Positions 16,722-26,176 of a DNA stretch of 64,000 nucleotides are shown piece after piece (the stretch's first letter is position 1; the number at the start of each line of letters is the position of its first letter). Source of the DNA: Erysipelotrichaceae bacterium (GTDB taxonomy: Bacteria > Bacillota_I > Bacilli_A > Erysipelotrichales > Erysipelotrichaceae); NCBI GenBank assembly GCA_017533785.1, contig JAFWII010000020.1:1-64000 (forward strand), written 5' to 3'. The notes beneath the pieces are model-generated. The model saw only the letters and a list, made by a program, of their open reading frames with translations, searched no databases and was not told where the DNA came from. Made by a program: the position numbers and the translations under genes.

Positions 16722-18080
16722 CTAGCGGCCGAAGACTTCCGGCTGCTGTTTTTCCGTCAGCCAGTCTCTCAGGAGAAAGGCACAATAATACGGAAAGGTA
16801 TAGATCCTGTTTTCAAAACCGATGTTGTTTAAAGACAGTTTTATGCCCCACGATATATCCGGATAACGGTCGTTATCGATCAGAGAACGCAGGGATTTGG
16901 ATCTTCCGCCTCTGGCCTTGACCTCCAGCGGGATCAGATTCCGCTGATCACGGATAAAGAAGTCTTCCTCCAGCGTTCCGTCCTCTCGTTTATAGTAATA
17001 AAGCGGGTAACCGTTTTTGTATAATGACTCACTGATGATATTTTCGAATAAAGCCCCTTTATAGACTCCCAGATTTCTGTTCGCCCGCAAGTCCTCTGCG
17101 GCTTCTTCATCCAGCATTGCGACCAGAAGTCCGGAATCGGCCATGTATAACTTGAATTTCGTGTCATCATAATTTCCTTTCAGCGGAAGTTCCGGATAGT
17201 TCAGACAGTAGCACTTTTTGACGATCCCGGCATCGGACAGCCACTCCACGCAGCCTCCGTAATCATGGAATCTTGCGCCTGCGGCAACTTTGGAGATCTG
17301 GAACTTCTTGTTTTCCTTTGCCAGCTGTGCGGGAACGGCGTCAAAGACTCTCGTTATTCTCGTCTGGTCAGCTCCGGTAACGTATTTGCGGATATCCTCT
17401 TTATATGCGGAAATGATCTGTTTCTGAAGTTCCAGCGTTCCCGAAAAGCTGCCGGACTGCAGATATCTGCCCAGGACTTCCGGCATACCTCCGAGAACGG
17501 CGTAATCCATAAACAGCGAATAAAGGACGTCTTTCAGCGTTTCGCTCAGCGGAGCGCTGTTTTTCATATGATCAAGAAGATCTCCCTTCAATGAATCGTC
17601 ATATCCTTTTGCCCATAAGAATTCTTCAAAATCCAGAGAATACATCTCGTAATCCGTTTTGTAGCCGACGCTGACGCTCTCGATCTGTTTGTAGTTTACG
17701 CCGAGCAGTGATCCGCTGCAGATCACGTCGTACCGGCCGTCAAGGGAAAAGAATTTCAATGATGTCATGATGTCAGGGCAGGACTGGACCTCGTCAAAAA
17801 AGAGAAGGGTCCTGCCGGGCACAAACGAGATCCCCGGATCGATCCTGGTGATATTCCGGACGATAAGATCGGTCTCGTAGCCGTCAGAAAGTATCGTTTT
17901 AAACTTCGGGCTTTCAATGAAATTGATCTCGACAAAATTGTCATAGTGTTCTTTCGCGAACTGCCTGACTGATCTGGTCTTTCCGATCTGCCTTGCTCCT
18001 TTGATAACGAGAGGCTTTCGGTCCGAGCTGCTGCACCAGTCGGATAAAAACCGGTCGACTTTTCTTTTCAGATAACGCAT
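16722..18080 (-). CDS. AAA-family ATPase with DUF4143 domain
   Basis: A 452-residue P-loop ATPase of the AAA_14/DUF4143 type, a family widespread in anaerobes with no settled function. Walker A is at 28-35 (GARQIGKT) and Walker B lies in LLFFDEVQSCPD (about 110-121). The C-terminal part has the DUF4143 nuclease-like look, with ExK-type residues in IPLEVKARGG. I place the start at 18080, where GGAGG stands 5 bp upstream; the longer in-frame ATG at 18140 has none. It is divergent from the NACHT gene and shares the repeat-bearing intergenic region. Confidence 0.85.
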   Translation of the reverse strand: MRYLKRKVDRFLSDWCSSSDRKPLVIKGARQIGKTRSVRQFAKEHYDNFVEINFIESPKFKTILSDGYETDLIVRNITRIDPGISFVPGRTLLFFDEVQSCPDIMTSLKFFSLDGRYDVICSGSLLGVNYKQIESVSVGYKTDYEMYSLDFEEFLWAKGYDDSLKGDLLDHMKNSAPLSETLKDVLYSLFMDYAVLGGMPEVLGRYLQSGSFSGTLELQKQIISAYKEDIRKYVTGADQTRITRVFDAVPAQLAKENKKFQISKVAAGARFHDYGGCVEWLSDAGIVKKCYCLNYPELPLKGNYDDTKFKLYMADSGLLVAMLDEEAAEDLRANRNLGVYKGALFENIISESLYKNGYPLYYYKREDGTLEEDFFIRDQRNLIPLEVKARGGRSKSLRSLIDNDRYPDISWGIKLSLNNIGFENRIYTFPYYCAFLLRDWLTEKQQPEVFGR

Positions 18081-18140
18081 ATTTGCCTCCAAACGACGCA
18101 GCGGCCGCATTGAGAAAACGATCCGCAGGTCATCTTTCAT

Positions 18141-18161
18141 TCTGATTATAACAAAATCAGA
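18141..18161. promoter_or_regulatory. Inverted repeat over the -10 box of the DUF4143 gene
   Basis: TCTGATT (18141-18147) and AATCAGA (18155-18161) form a perfect 7-bp inverted repeat. The minus-strand TATAAT (18145-18150), extended by an upstream TG, lies inside it, and so does repeat copy 1. This is the geometry of a repressor operator. Confidence 0.6.
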
Positions 18162-18227
18162 GCCAAAATTATGATTAAACTAACAAAATTAGAGCGAAAA
18201 AATCAATATAATCTAACAAAATCAGAT
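18149..18227 (+). repeat. Three-copy 14-bp direct repeat (iterated operator candidate)
   Basis: TAACAAAATCAGAG (18149-18162), TAACAAAATTAGAG (18181-18194) and TAACAAAATCAGAT (18214-18227) are spaced 32 and 33 bp, about three helical turns. Copy 2 contains the small dyad CTAA-caaaa-TTAG, and copies 1 and 3 are near-versions of it. The repeats lie between the DUF4143 start and the NACHT start. A shared regulator of both transcription units is the likely reader (inference). Confidence 0.75.
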
Positions 18228-18281
18228 TATTCAAGGGAACGCGTCGTCGCAGACATCGGGAAAATGTTCCTTTCCCTGATG

Positions 18282-18307
18282 TATAATGAAAAGGACAAAG
18301 TCAGGAG
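18282..18307 (+). promoter_or_regulatory. -10 box and ribosome binding site of the NACHT gene
   Basis: TATAAT at 18282-18287 has no clear -35 box, so activation or a different upstream element is possible. AGGAG at 18303-18307 stands 7 bp before the ATG at 18315 and fixes that start against the earlier in-frame ATGs (18171, 18264, 18279). Confidence 0.5.
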
Positions 18308-18314
18308 TATTCAT

Positions 18315-19955
18315 ATGCTGAACGAAGAGATAAAACAATGGTTCCGCGAAGCAGCATCCCGCAATTACGACATGGGGTGTTTTGAAAAGGCCTTTGAGGC
18401 GTTTGACATGTTCCTTGAATCGAATGAGACCTATTACGATTTCGGCAAGGCGATCGAGGACATGTACAATGCCGGCCGCAGCAACAAAGTCTATTATCTG
18501 CAGAAATTCTCGAACATCGAGATCTATATGAAGGCGCTCTACAACTGCATCGCCGGTTCGCAGGTCTATACCCTGGATCCGGAAGACAACGATACGCTGA
18601 TGCTGGCGAAGCAGTACCGTGATACCTTCCATGTGATGCCTTCCGACTGGCATCCGAAACCGGAGAAGACGGAAGCGTTCCGGATCACGGATACCGAATA
18701 TGACGGGATCCCGCTGACCGGCTATATGCGCTATTACCTCGATATCTACCAGCTGCGCAACCGGATGACGCATGAATCGCTGCTGGATCTCGACAACATG
18801 GGCGCGGACGAAAGGGCGAACTCGATGATCGTCTGCTACCTCGATCTGGCGTACCGGCACCGCGAGGCGATCTCCGGAAAGTTCCGCGTGCGTTCCCTGG
18901 ACCTGAACGGCTATGCAGACAAAGTGATCCGCCGCTACGAGCGTTTCCTTGCCGGCTACAAATACCTTGACGTCAAATGGATGGACAGCCAGGAACACGG
19001 ACTGACCGTCGACGGACTGATCGGAGAAGAAGAGAGCTGCCTGAAGCTTGCCGGAGATGCCGGCACCGGCAAGACGACCGCATTGATGCGTCTTGCCTAT
19101 CTGATGGCGCAGCGTATCAGGAATAAACTGAGCCAGACGCTTCCGGTCTATATCCCGCTGTCTCAGCTGACAGCCGGCGACCGCATGCTGTACAGCGCCG
19201 TTGCCAAGGAGCTCGGCGCGAATTTCAGCGAGGCGGAACGTCTGATCCAGAACGGTCAGGTCTGCCTGCTGCTCGACGGTCTCAATGAGATCCTGAATCT
19301 TGAAGTGCGTTCGAAACTCGCCTTTGAGGCGGACGGCATCGCCGCGATGTACCCGGACGTGAAGATCGTCTTTACGGACCGGGCGGTGATCCGGCCTTCG
19401 GTCATGATGCTGTCGAACGCCAGAACGCTGCATCTCATGCCGCTGACAGTGGAAGACAAGATGACCTATTTTGAGGAGAACTGCAGCGATCCGGAGATCC
19501 TGCAGATCATCCGCGACCGGGTCGCGACCAACTCCGGGATCCTCAACGATCTCGTCAAGCCGATTCAGCTGCGCCAGTTCCTGGAAGTGGTCTCCGAGAA
19601 GAAAGAGATCCCGTTCGAAATGACCGGGGATTATCTCGAGATGCTGATGGAGCGCGAACGCAGCGAAAAGAAAGACACCAACATCGATTACCTTCCGTAT
19701 TATCTGGAAGCGCTGGCGGTCGATATGAAAAAGAAACAGGTCCGCGAAGTCGGGCAGGACCGCTTCCTGCAGATCATGGCGGAAGTCAACTTCAGCTACG
19801 GCTTTACCGTGCCGGATACGATGAACTGCCAGAAACTGCTGGTCGACATGGGCATCCTGCAGCTGGAGCGCAACCGCAAGATCTCCTTCACCAACGACAA
19901 GTTCCGGATCTACTACGAGATGACCGCCGCGGAGAAACAGAATGAATTATCTTGA
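18315..19955 (+). CDS. NACHT NTPase with N-terminal HEPN-like motif
   Basis: A 546-residue STAND-type NTPase. The NACHT core has Walker A at 247-254 (GDAGTGKT) and Walker B in LLLDGLNE (318-325), the classic hhhhDGLxE form. It also has a sensor-like strand ending in FTDR and, at 525-536, the winged-helix closing motif FTNDKFRIYYEM, close to the F(S/T)H-x3-EYF signature of the family. The N-terminal 200 residues are helical and carry R148-N149-x3-H153, the HEPN ribonuclease motif. The protein ends just after the winged-helix part and lacks the usual C-terminal sensor repeats. The next gene overlaps by 14 bp and may supply them. A role in defence by regulated RNA cleavage is inference. Confidence 0.8.
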   Translation: MLNEEIKQWFREAASRNYDMGCFEKAFEAFDMFLESNETYYDFGKAIEDMYNAGRSNKVYYLQKFSNIEIYMKALYNCIAGSQVYTLDPEDNDTLMLAKQYRDTFHVMPSDWHPKPEKTEAFRITDTEYDGIPLTGYMRYYLDIYQLRNRMTHESLLDLDNMGADERANSMIVCYLDLAYRHREAISGKFRVRSLDLNGYADKVIRRYERFLAGYKYLDVKWMDSQEHGLTVDGLIGEEESCLKLAGDAGTGKTTALMRLAYLMAQRIRNKLSQTLPVYIPLSQLTAGDRMLYSAVAKELGANFSEAERLIQNGQVCLLLDGLNEILNLEVRSKLAFEADGIAAMYPDVKIVFTDRAVIRPSVMMLSNARTLHLMPLTVEDKMTYFEENCSDPEILQIIRDRVATNSGILNDLVKPIQLRQFLEVVSEKKEIPFEMTGDYLEMLMERERSEKKDTNIDYLPYYLEALAVDMKKKQVREVGQDRFLQIMAEVNFSYGFTVPDTMNCQKLLVDMGILQLERNRKISFTNDKFRIYYEMTAAEKQNELS

Positions 19956-21594
19956 TCTGCTGGATACCCGCGAGGAATATCAGGCCCTGTACGACCGCAG
20001 CCAGATGTACTGCGCCAGGATCTGGTCGGAGCAGGGGAAGGAAGGCGTACTGAAGTTTCTGGAAGGCCTGCTCGTCCGCCTGCCGCTGATCGCCCGGGCT
20101 CTGAAGAAGAATTACCGTATTTACATGACCGCTGAGGAAAGCGCTGCTTTGAACGCGGTCTATGAGGGAGTGCTGGAATCGGGAAGGGAAGAGAATGACC
20201 CTGCCCGCCTGGCGGAACTGACGCTGGCTGCGCTATACACCTTCGAAAAACAGGCTCCCCGGATCGTCCGCCGTTCGGCCGGTCTTGCCCGCCGGGACAG
20301 TGAATTTCTGGAAGCCTATGACCGGCGGATCGCCCAGCTGGTAAAACTGCCGTTCTATCCGAGATCCAATGTCGTCCAGCTTCTGCGCTTCAAATACCAC
20401 AGCTATGATCCGGTGCAGCGCTATGACGATATCTATCTGCTGGCGAAACAGCTGCCGCTTCTGACGGATATCCGCCGTCCGGAACCGCTGGTCAAGCTGT
20501 TCCATGAAGTGCTGGCGAACCGCGATTTCAAGTATCTCTGGGTCCTGAGCCGGATGTTTCCGACCGTGACTCTGGAAAAACTGCAGATCAGTCAGGAAGA
20601 ACTGGCTGCCGCCGGCAGGGAGCTCTCCGAACCGTTCACCCACTATGTCTGTTTCTGCGACGGGATGATCAAGCGCTCGCGCCGCGAGGAAACGGAACAG
20701 ATGAAGGAGCTGGAGGATTTCTATCCGAAACTGAAGGAATCGCTGCTGGTCAGCCACCCTGAGACTGTCGCCCTGGTGGATGTCCTGCGTCTGACCAACG
20801 GTATCTGCCTGCAGCCGGAAAAGCGCGGAGAACTGCTTTCCGGAACGGCGCCGGGGAAAGTCAATGCGTATGAACTGCAGGACGGCTACGTCATGAAGCA
20901 GCAGGAAAAAGCTTTCCGTTCGCTGATCACGTCTTCGCCCGAGCTCGTTCTCGCTTTCATCCGCATGCTTGGCGAAAACAATCTCTACGCGTTCTCCGAG
21001 AAGCGTGACTACCGTTATGCCGAGAGCGTTTCCTATATCACCGCCGCCCACTGGACGCTGGCTCTGAAGCAGCATTACAGCGAGGAGGAATGCGTTGAGA
21101 TCTATATGAACTCGATCCTGCGCAGCATCTATCCGCTGACCTCGTTCCTGCGGGAACTGCTTCTTGAAAGAAGAACGCCGGAACATCCGGCAGATGAGAA
21201 CAGCGATCCGGTCTTCTACACCAAGGTGATCAAAAAACTGTTCCGTCCCTATGTCTGCTTCGGCAAATTCGTCTACAACACCGAGCAGAATTCCACAGAG
21301 ATCGTTTCCTACAGTTTCCGCAACGACCAGACCCGCACGCTGTACAACGGCAAAGACATTGCCGGCAGCGAGCTCGGCAGGGAAGTGAGGGAACTCGTCC
21401 GCACCAAGAAGTCCACTAAAAAAGGCGCCAGAACGATCGCATTCCGGCTGGAGAAGATCGATTTCATGAACGATCTTTACGATCATAACGTCCTGCGGGC
21501 AAAGGTTCTACCGGAGTATCCGGACACGGGCTCGTTCCGCACGACCCGCCGCTATTTCGGCTACGGCGAATTGCCTTCAAGGGACGATGACTGA
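19942..21594 (+). CDS. Orphan helical protein coupled to the NACHT gene
   Basis: I do not recognise this 550-residue protein. It has no signal peptide or membrane segment, appears almost wholly alpha-helical in its first 400 residues with many charged amphipathic stretches, and ends with a basic, more beta-like segment (about 455-550). Its start lies inside the NACHT gene (14-bp overlap, different frame), so it is made by coupled translation. The placement directly after a NACHT protein that lacks C-terminal repeats suggests it is the detached sensor or scaffold half of a STAND system. This is inferred from gene order, not from homology. Confidence 0.7.
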   Translation: MNYLDLLDTREEYQALYDRSQMYCARIWSEQGKEGVLKFLEGLLVRLPLIARALKKNYRIYMTAEESAALNAVYEGVLESGREENDPARLAELTLAALYTFEKQAPRIVRRSAGLARRDSEFLEAYDRRIAQLVKLPFYPRSNVVQLLRFKYHSYDPVQRYDDIYLLAKQLPLLTDIRRPEPLVKLFHEVLANRDFKYLWVLSRMFPTVTLEKLQISQEELAAAGRELSEPFTHYVCFCDGMIKRSRREETEQMKELEDFYPKLKESLLVSHPETVALVDVLRLTNGICLQPEKRGELLSGTAPGKVNAYELQDGYVMKQQEKAFRSLITSSPELVLAFIRMLGENNLYAFSEKRDYRYAESVSYITAAHWTLALKQHYSEEECVEIYMNSILRSIYPLTSFLRELLLERRTPEHPADENSDPVFYTKVIKKLFRPYVCFGKFVYNTEQNSTEIVSYSFRNDQTRTLYNGKDIAGSELGREVRELVRTKKSTKKGARTIAFRLEKIDFMNDLYDHNVLRAKVLPEYPDTGSFRTTRRYFGYGELPSRDDD

Positions 21595-24692: not shown

Positions 24693-25280
24693 ATGTCGAC
24701 AGAGGAAATTCTTTCTTCAGAGCGGAAGATCTATTCGATGGAAGATCTCAAAAGAAAAGGCCTCTCGCAATACAAGGTCAAAAAGCTGGTCGATGAGGGG
24801 AAACTGGTCAAACTAAATAAAAGTCATTATGAAAATGCGGAATACAGCGGGGAAGAATCCGATCTGTATTATGCGGAAGCCTTCGCTCCGAAAGGGGTGG
24901 TCTGCCTTCTCAGCGCTGCTGCTTATTATAATCTGACAACATTCGTTCCGGATGCGGTAGATGTTGCGATCGCCCGGAAAGACAACGTCGCAACTCTTCC
25001 GGACTGGCCGGCTATGCATATTCATCATTTCACGGATGACAGACACGAACTCGGTGTATCGACCGTTAAGGAAGGCGAGAACGAGTTCAAGATCTATGAC
25101 GTTGAAAAAACAGTCACGGATGTTGTGTATTATCGCGAGAAGATCGGGATCGAAGAAACCAAAGAAGTGCTGGTGACTTATCTGCGCAGAAAGGACCGTG
25201 ATATAAACCGGCTTCTGAGTTATGCGGAACAGATGAAGTGCGGAAAAGTGATGAAACAGTATCTGGAGATGCTTCTATGA
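24693..25280 (+). CDS. AbiEi-type antitoxin of a type IV toxin-antitoxin pair (pair 1)
   Basis: This 195-residue protein fits the AbiEi family: an N-terminal winged-helix DNA-binding part (about 10-60) and a C-terminal antitoxin domain containing the family's YDVEKTVTDVVYYR segment (about 136-149). It should neutralise the following AbiEii protein without a tight complex and repress the operon through the repeat at 24645-24669. GAGGTGA at 24682-24688 supports the start. The stop overlaps the toxin start as ATGA. Confidence 0.85.
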   Translation: MSTEEILSSERKIYSMEDLKRKGLSQYKVKKLVDEGKLVKLNKSHYENAEYSGEESDLYYAEAFAPKGVVCLLSAAAYYNLTTFVPDAVDVAIARKDNVATLPDWPAMHIHHFTDDRHELGVSTVKEGENEFKIYDVEKTVTDVVYYREKIGIEETKEVLVTYLRRKDRDINRLLSYAEQMKCGKVMKQYLEMLL

Positions 25281-26176
25281 CGACTGCCGCTTCTGTAAAG
25301 GACAGACTGCGAAACCGCGCCGCAGCCACCGGAAAGACTCTGCAGGAGGTCCTGATCGCCTACGGTCTCGAAAGAACCATTTACCGGCTGTCAGTGTCCG
25401 GATACAGTGAAAGATTCACTTTGAAAGGTGGGATCCTGCTGTATGCTTTATTTGACGGCGAGTTTGCCAGAGCGACCAGAGACATCGATCTGCTGGGGAA
25501 AAACATATCGAATGAAGCAGAAGATATGAGAGCCGTCTTCACGGAAATATTCTCGATCGAATGCGATGATGCGCTGCGGTTTGATCTGGGTACTCTTGAA
25601 GTAAGAAATATCACTGAATTCAAGGAATACCACGGCGTGAACGTTTCGATCATGAGTTACCTGGACCGGACCAGAGTTCCTGTAGCGATCGATATCGGTT
25701 TTGGAGACGTGATCTATCCGGAAAGAGTTGAACTGGAATTCCCGGTGCTGCTCGATATGGAGATTCCGAAGATCCATGCGTATCCGGTCTGTTCGGTGAT
25801 CGCGGAAAAGTTCGAAGCGATCGTATCTCTTGGAAATGCCAACAGCCGTTACAAAGACTTCTATGATATCTATGTTCTCGCATGCAGATTTCCTCTGGAT
25901 GGGAAAGAACTGAAAGAAGCGATCGTTGAAACGTTCTCGCACCGGGGCACGGAGCTAAGAAACATAGTTGCTTTCGAAAATGATTTCCTGAACAACGTGA
26001 TACATCAAAGCAGGTGGAGATCATTTCTCAAAAAGAAAAAGGCAATGCTCGACATTGGGCTGACCGATGTCATGAAGGTCCTGCAAACCCTCCTTATGCC
26101 GGTTGTTTCGAGCATTGGCGAAAACACTGAGTTTGCCGAAAGCTGGGATCCGAAAGCAGGTAAATGGAGCGAATGA
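25277..26176 (+). CDS. AbiEii nucleotidyltransferase toxin (pair 1)
   Basis: A 299-residue AbiEii/AbiGii-type nucleotidyltransferase-fold toxin. The pol-beta-like core is visible as KGG at 50-52 and RATRDIDLL at 65-73 (Asp69 and Asp71), and the family segment RYKDFYDIY lies at about 195-203. AbiEii proteins halt growth; related enzymes such as MenT3 transfer nucleotides to tRNA. The start at 25277 (ATGA overlap with abiEi) is preferred over the longer ORF start at 25238. Confidence 0.88.
   Translation: MTTAASVKDRLRNRAAATGKTLQEVLIAYGLERTIYRLSVSGYSERFTLKGGILLYALFDGEFARATRDIDLLGKNISNEAEDMRAVFTEIFSIECDDALRFDLGTLEVRNITEFKEYHGVNVSIMSYLDRTRVPVAIDIGFGDVIYPERVELEFPVLLDMEIPKIHAYPVCSVIAEKFEAIVSLGNANSRYKDFYDIYVLACRFPLDGKELKEAIVETFSHRGTELRNIVAFENDFLNNVIHQSRWRSFLKKKKAMLDIGLTDVMKVLQTLLMPVVSSIGENTEFAESWDPKAGKWSE

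Follow-up and report, generated by a model that had tools for sequence, protein, structure and literature searches.

A conserved two-gene NACHT system of Erysipelotrichaceae with a candidate sensor on a separate chain

The window, a stretch of 64,000 nucleotides from an Erysipelotrichaceae bacterium, carries a conserved, uncharacterised two-gene NACHT system, which in one relative (locus L013) consists of three genes. A NACHT ATPase with HEPN-type motifs in its N-terminus ends shortly after its winged helix, and a separate helical-repeat protein is encoded directly downstream in an overlapping reading frame. We give about even odds (roughly 0.5) to the reading that the pair is a split NLR-like device of abortive defence, with the sensor supplied in trans and a likely HEPN RNase as the effector; this function is one that we infer. 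The pair was undescribed in the literature searched, which comprised open-licence papers.

The gene pair, its distribution and its neighbourhood

The features of the locus are as follows.

18315..19955, + strand: gene of the HEPN-like and NACHT STAND ATPase (546 aa), with its conserved start at 18315 in a frame open from 18171
18280..18287, + strand: TGTATAAT, a -10-like box 27 bp upstream of the 18315 start, conserved in two close relatives
18315..18980, + strand: N-terminal helical domain of the NACHT protein, with invariant E69-x3-K73 and R148-N149-x2-T152-H153; likely RNase effector, judged from sequence
18981..19952, + strand: NACHT NBD and winged helix; Walker A at residues 247-255, Walker B at 318-325, TDR sensor-1-like motif at 354-356, winged helix ending at ~537
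19942..19955, + strand: overlap of the two reading frames, 14 bp (4-23 bp across relatives); translational coupling
19942..21594, + strand: partner gene, 550 aa; alpha-solenoid at ~1-433, small beta domain at ~439-523; candidate sensor in trans
16722-18140, - strand: AAA_14/DUF4143 ATPase, matching the PADLOC candidate PDC-S01
24693-26176: AbiEi/AbiEii pair adjoining the system; in the close relative L012 it has either diverged strongly or been replaced

Reading of the open reading frames bore out the predicted coordinates of both genes and their 14-bp overlap. The first in-frame ATG of the NACHT gene lies at 18171, and this start was rejected because the relatives begin at the position equivalent to 18315. 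All six relatives (6/6) start at an ML matching 18315, with three extra residues in one close pair. Since these starts match and the TGTATAAT box is conserved just upstream, 18315 is the likely start. Compared with two close relatives, both genes show a dN/dS of ~0.1, indicating purifying selection. An Rfam search found no RNA near the pair.

A profile census of the order, covering 316 genomes for NACHT and 311 for the partner, found full-length NACHT homologues and partner homologues in seven genomes each, and these seven were the same. An eighth genome gave partial ATPase matches only, and weak profile matches in four genomes of other genera (G385, G406, G441 and G478) were discarded, as the surrounding reading frames look like Clp-type and other P-loop ATPases. 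In all seven Erysipelotrichaceae genomes, the NACHT and partner genes are adjacent and in the same order, with overlaps of 4, 14, 14, 14, 17, 17 and 23 bp according to the ORF coordinates; in one of them (L016), the end of the contig truncates the partner. The original prediction was to be abandoned if homologues usually lacked the second gene; both genes are present in 7/7 genomes, an obligate two-gene layout. Moreover, the relative frame of the partner differs between genomes, which would fit termination-reinitiation rather than programmed frameshifting, and the trees of the two genes agree in topology. The other six carriers of the pair are MAGs of Erysipelotrichaceae, and goat or sheep gut is the source of at least four.

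The pair is present in 4/4 genomes examined of the genus and absent from most of the family. No relative of it was found in the viral, phage or plasmid contigs searched, and on plasmids the NACHT protein of a relative, used as the query, matched only other NACHT families. The profile census covered the order, and the wider contig scan relied on two peptide patterns of close range; the limits of the search may thus account for part of the narrow distribution. Additionally, synteny was compared on genome stretches. In another genome of the same genus (G018), the pair lies at another site and is 36% (NACHT) and 28% (partner) identical to that of the window, while DnaK, HrcA and DnaJ are 69-88% identical between the two genomes. 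Given this different site and the far greater divergence, the pair is either mobile or fast-evolving.

The window pair sits between alcohol dehydrogenase and ABC transporter ATPase genes, with the AAA_14/DUF4143 gene on one side and an M16 peptidase gene and AbiEi/AbiEii on the other. The AAA_14/DUF4143 gene was not seen between the dehydrogenase and NACHT genes in two close relatives. Compared with the window, the dehydrogenase and ABC genes of L012 are 95-97% identical, but AbiE is only 46-56% identical. Neither gene of the pair matched PADLOC-DB 2.0 below E=0.02. Around the other copies whose neighbours were read, the genes are largely housekeeping genes. Evidence for a location in defence islands, for which a neighbourhood search had been proposed, is thus modest: the window copy has AbiE and a PADLOC candidate gene beside it, but some other copies lie mostly among housekeeping genes. 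Upstream of the divergent AAA_14/DUF4143 gene, the operator-like element TAACAAAATYAGA occurs in three copies ~32-33 bp apart (18149-18226).

The narrow distribution, the frequent housekeeping neighbours and the lack of the pair in the phage, plasmid and viral contigs searched count against a defence device, and the presence of the pair in every examined genome of the genus is also compatible with a cellular role. On that reading, the pair would be a STAND switch for RNA turnover or the stress response in these gut bacteria, a regulator outside defence. Its restriction to Erysipelotrichaceae MAGs and purifying selection similar to that of its neighbours agree with such a regulator. Against it, the pair is missing from most of the family, occupies unrelated sites and is far more divergent than the housekeeping genes of the same genomes, and the window copy lies beside AbiE, itself diverged or replaced in a close relative, and the PADLOC candidate gene. 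We regard a cellular regulator as improbable, the least likely of the explanations weighed here.

The NACHT ATPase and its N-terminal domain

NACHT is the only Pfam domain above the curated cut-off in the window protein (34 bits versus a cut-off of 26.7), and it is matched in 7/7 homologues at E<=0.1. As predicted, the protein contains Walker A (GDAGTGKTT, with K253) and Walker B (LLLDGLNE, with D321), and the Walker A, Walker B and sensor 1 motifs that mark a STAND/NACHT ATPase are conserved across the homologues. In the DGxDE box of NACHT, N takes the place of the second D in the window protein, and likewise in a NACHT protein of S. meliloti. In a profile search, the NACHT family profile reached NLRC4/NAIP at 1e-6 to 1e-4. 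The AlphaFold2 model has a mean pLDDT of 65, with the NACHT core mostly at 70-93, and Foldseek aligned it over ~390 columns to NLRC4, NLRP3 and NOD2, including a winged helix after the ATPase core. Collectively, these results support the window protein as a genuine NACHT/STAND ATPase.

The chain ends ~10 residues past the winged helix (up to ~20 residues in relatives), and none of the seven homologues carries the same-chain C-terminal sensor of bNACHT and Avs proteins. The closing motif of the winged helix had been placed at residues 525-536; the position is correct, but the motif is degenerate, and the histidine of F-x-H is replaced by N, S or T in 7/7 homologues, whereas two NACHT proteins used for comparison, from S. 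meliloti and E. coli, retain it. In the resting form of animal NLRs, ADP is contacted by this histidine, so its loss here would fit restraint by another chain. The genome of the window also encodes a second NACHT-type protein of 702 aa (L017 9104-11212, G000:C21), whose gene lies a few kb from helicase-like and other large reading frames.

The HEPN signature consists of R-x4-6-H with a polar residue after R, mostly N, D or H, and an upstream acidic residue that is often within E-x3-[KR] (PMC3710099). Both parts are found in the window protein, as R148, N149 and H153 and as E69 and K73. The original prediction had pointed to R148-N149-x3-H153; this motif (R148-N149-x2-T152-H153) is present and invariant in 7/7 homologues, at a NACHT identity of 32-44%, and so is the upstream E69-x3-K73. 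When the 21 invariant N-terminal residues (M1 and L2 excluded) were permuted over their positions, both motifs occurred in this order at a frequency of 8e-5. The AlphaFold2 model places the R-x4-H close to where a predicted helix (137-156) ends and E69 within a helix at 66-79, but residues 75-159 have a pLDDT below 50.

At the level of significance, searches of Pfam, PADLOC and the PDB returned no HEPN family match for the N-terminus. Two weaker leads were dropped: a HEPN_Apea match (E=0.18) came from one member only, and follow-up searches failed to recover the NACHT locus, while a YcjX match (E=0.0075) is confined to residues 2-64. The predicted HEPN ribonuclease effector thus gains from the strict conservation of the motif pair, but not from a significant family match or from the model, whose pLDDT is below 50 over residues 75-159. 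We consider the N-terminus a likely HEPN RNase effector, on the basis of the motifs and their order rather than the fold. The same lack of family and fold support would also fit a helical adaptor or oligomerisation domain without nuclease activity; its HEPN-like motifs would then be structural and the effector would lie elsewhere, for example in the beta domain of the partner. This is unlikely in our estimate, because neither motif varies among the homologues and their order is the expected one, N follows R, and the R-x4-H sits close to a predicted helix end, in line with the published definition (PMC3710099).

The partner protein and known systems

Searches with the partner gave nothing in Pfam, NCBIfam or PADLOC and no more than noise in PHROGs, and it contains no recognisable ATPase. 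Its model is confident (pLDDT 83, pTM 0.80) and shows helical repeats up to residue 433, followed by a small beta-beta-beta-alpha-beta-beta domain. A structure search found no solved or viral structure at E<0.001, and the Foldseek matches are generic helical-repeat proteins. Among relatives, the partner ranges from 514 to 780 aa. In L014 and L015, it has 759-780 aa, and the C-terminal extension of these long partners corresponds to a separate downstream gene of 220 aa in L013 (8159-8821; E ~1e-10), a region that the window partner lacks. The helix-plus-beta module may be repeated in the long partners, where the profile match is weak. Furthermore, partner identity among distant members is 20-30%, versus 32-44% for NACHT, so the partner diverges faster, as expected of a sensor.

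An alpha-solenoid at the usual place of the sensor, with faster divergence and a variable C-terminus, would fit a recognition module in trans. The helical orphan had been proposed as a split sensor; it does begin where other bNACHT proteins continue into their C-terminal region, and coupling holds in 7/7 genomes, so that it is a candidate sensor. Alternatively, the pair may resemble a toxin-antitoxin module, in which an RNase, the HEPN-NACHT protein, is toxic under certain conditions and the partner serves mainly to inhibit it until degradation or stress, and not recognition of a phage ligand, lifts the block. Tight coupling and obligate co-occurrence agree with this, HEPN proteins are common as toxins (PMC3710099), and the missing winged-helix histidine could mean weak self-inhibition and hence the need for an inhibitor in trans. 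However, an antitoxin does not typically match its toxin in size, as the partner would here, and a fast-evolving solenoid with a variable C-terminal extension is more like a recognition surface. This explanation, to which we give a low probability, also overlaps with the split defence device, where the partner restrains the switch as well.

Like bNACHT proteins (PMC12169576), the window protein has a NACHT STAND ATPase in its centre and an effector region at its N-terminus. In those proteins, a C-terminal region (SNaCT, NCH1 and others) follows in the same chain, whereas the window protein ends after its winged helix and is followed by a separate protein. The earlier generalisation that bacterial NACHT and other STAND proteins normally have a large C-terminal sensor applies in part, but clade-14 bNACHT proteins have short C-terminal domains (PMC12169576). 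The bNACHT effectors that this paper describes are PD-(D/E)XK nucleases or undefined, not HEPN domains (PMC12169576), and the window protein has HEPN-type motifs. With the HEPN superfamily RNases (PMC3710099), it shares the R-x4-H with N after R and the upstream E-x3-K, but it lacks a match to a Pfam HEPN family. In the text of that survey, NACHT fusions are to the animal HEPN families CXorf38 and DZIP3 (PMC3710099).

In AVAST (Avs) systems, a STAND ATPase is likewise the switch between sensing and effector, and Avs4 (8dgf) is among the Foldseek matches; no PADLOC Avs model matches either gene. Avs sensors lie in the same polypeptide as the ATPase, in contrast to the window pair. The S. meliloti NACHT protein (plasmid pSmeAK21a, P0001), found by tblastn with the NACHT protein of a relative (2e-6), matches in NACHT and winged helix. 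However, its N-terminus looks HNH-like rather than HEPN-like, its winged-helix histidine is retained, and its C-terminal half is fused, running ~560 residues past the winged helix, exactly where the window NACHT protein stops. This plasmid gene overlaps a 395-aa gene by 8 bp (L050 5539-10003) and lies near an ATP-dependent endonuclease and helicase pair. A conceptual parallel is NAIP-NLRC4, in which sensor and signalling switch are on separate chains, but NAIP is itself a NACHT protein.

Proposed mechanism and its meaning

In the split defence device, the two chains, NACHT protein and partner, would together form a single NLR-like immune device. The 546-aa protein, with its NACHT ATPase and N-terminal HEPN-type domain, would act as both switch and effector. 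The translationally coupled partner of 514-780 aa would be the sensor, in place of the C-terminal one that other bacterial NACHT proteins carry in the same chain. In the resting state, the partner would keep the ATPase inactive. Once the partner binds a phage or stress ligand, the NACHT protein would exchange nucleotide and oligomerise, and the HEPN domains brought together in this way would cut RNA and stop growth or infection. For the pair itself, we infer complex formation, RNase activity, the ligand and the defence outcome. The missing HEPN family match, the poor N-terminal model and the lack of a partner structure match speak against the mechanism. A more specific form of it, which we advance tentatively and rate clearly below an even chance, is that a minimal HEPN-NACHT chain without the winged-helix histidine depends for its autoinhibition as well as for ligand recognition on a separate, fast-evolving and further splittable solenoid.

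The usual picture of NLRs, bacterial and animal, is of one chain that unites sensor, switch and effector. If the split defence device is correct, the modules of NLRs would prove separable, since the sensor would have a polypeptide to itself, and the pair would offer a small two-part system for testing sensing, restraint and effector output one by one. HEPN RNases would then join the effectors that are driven by bacterial NACHT switches.
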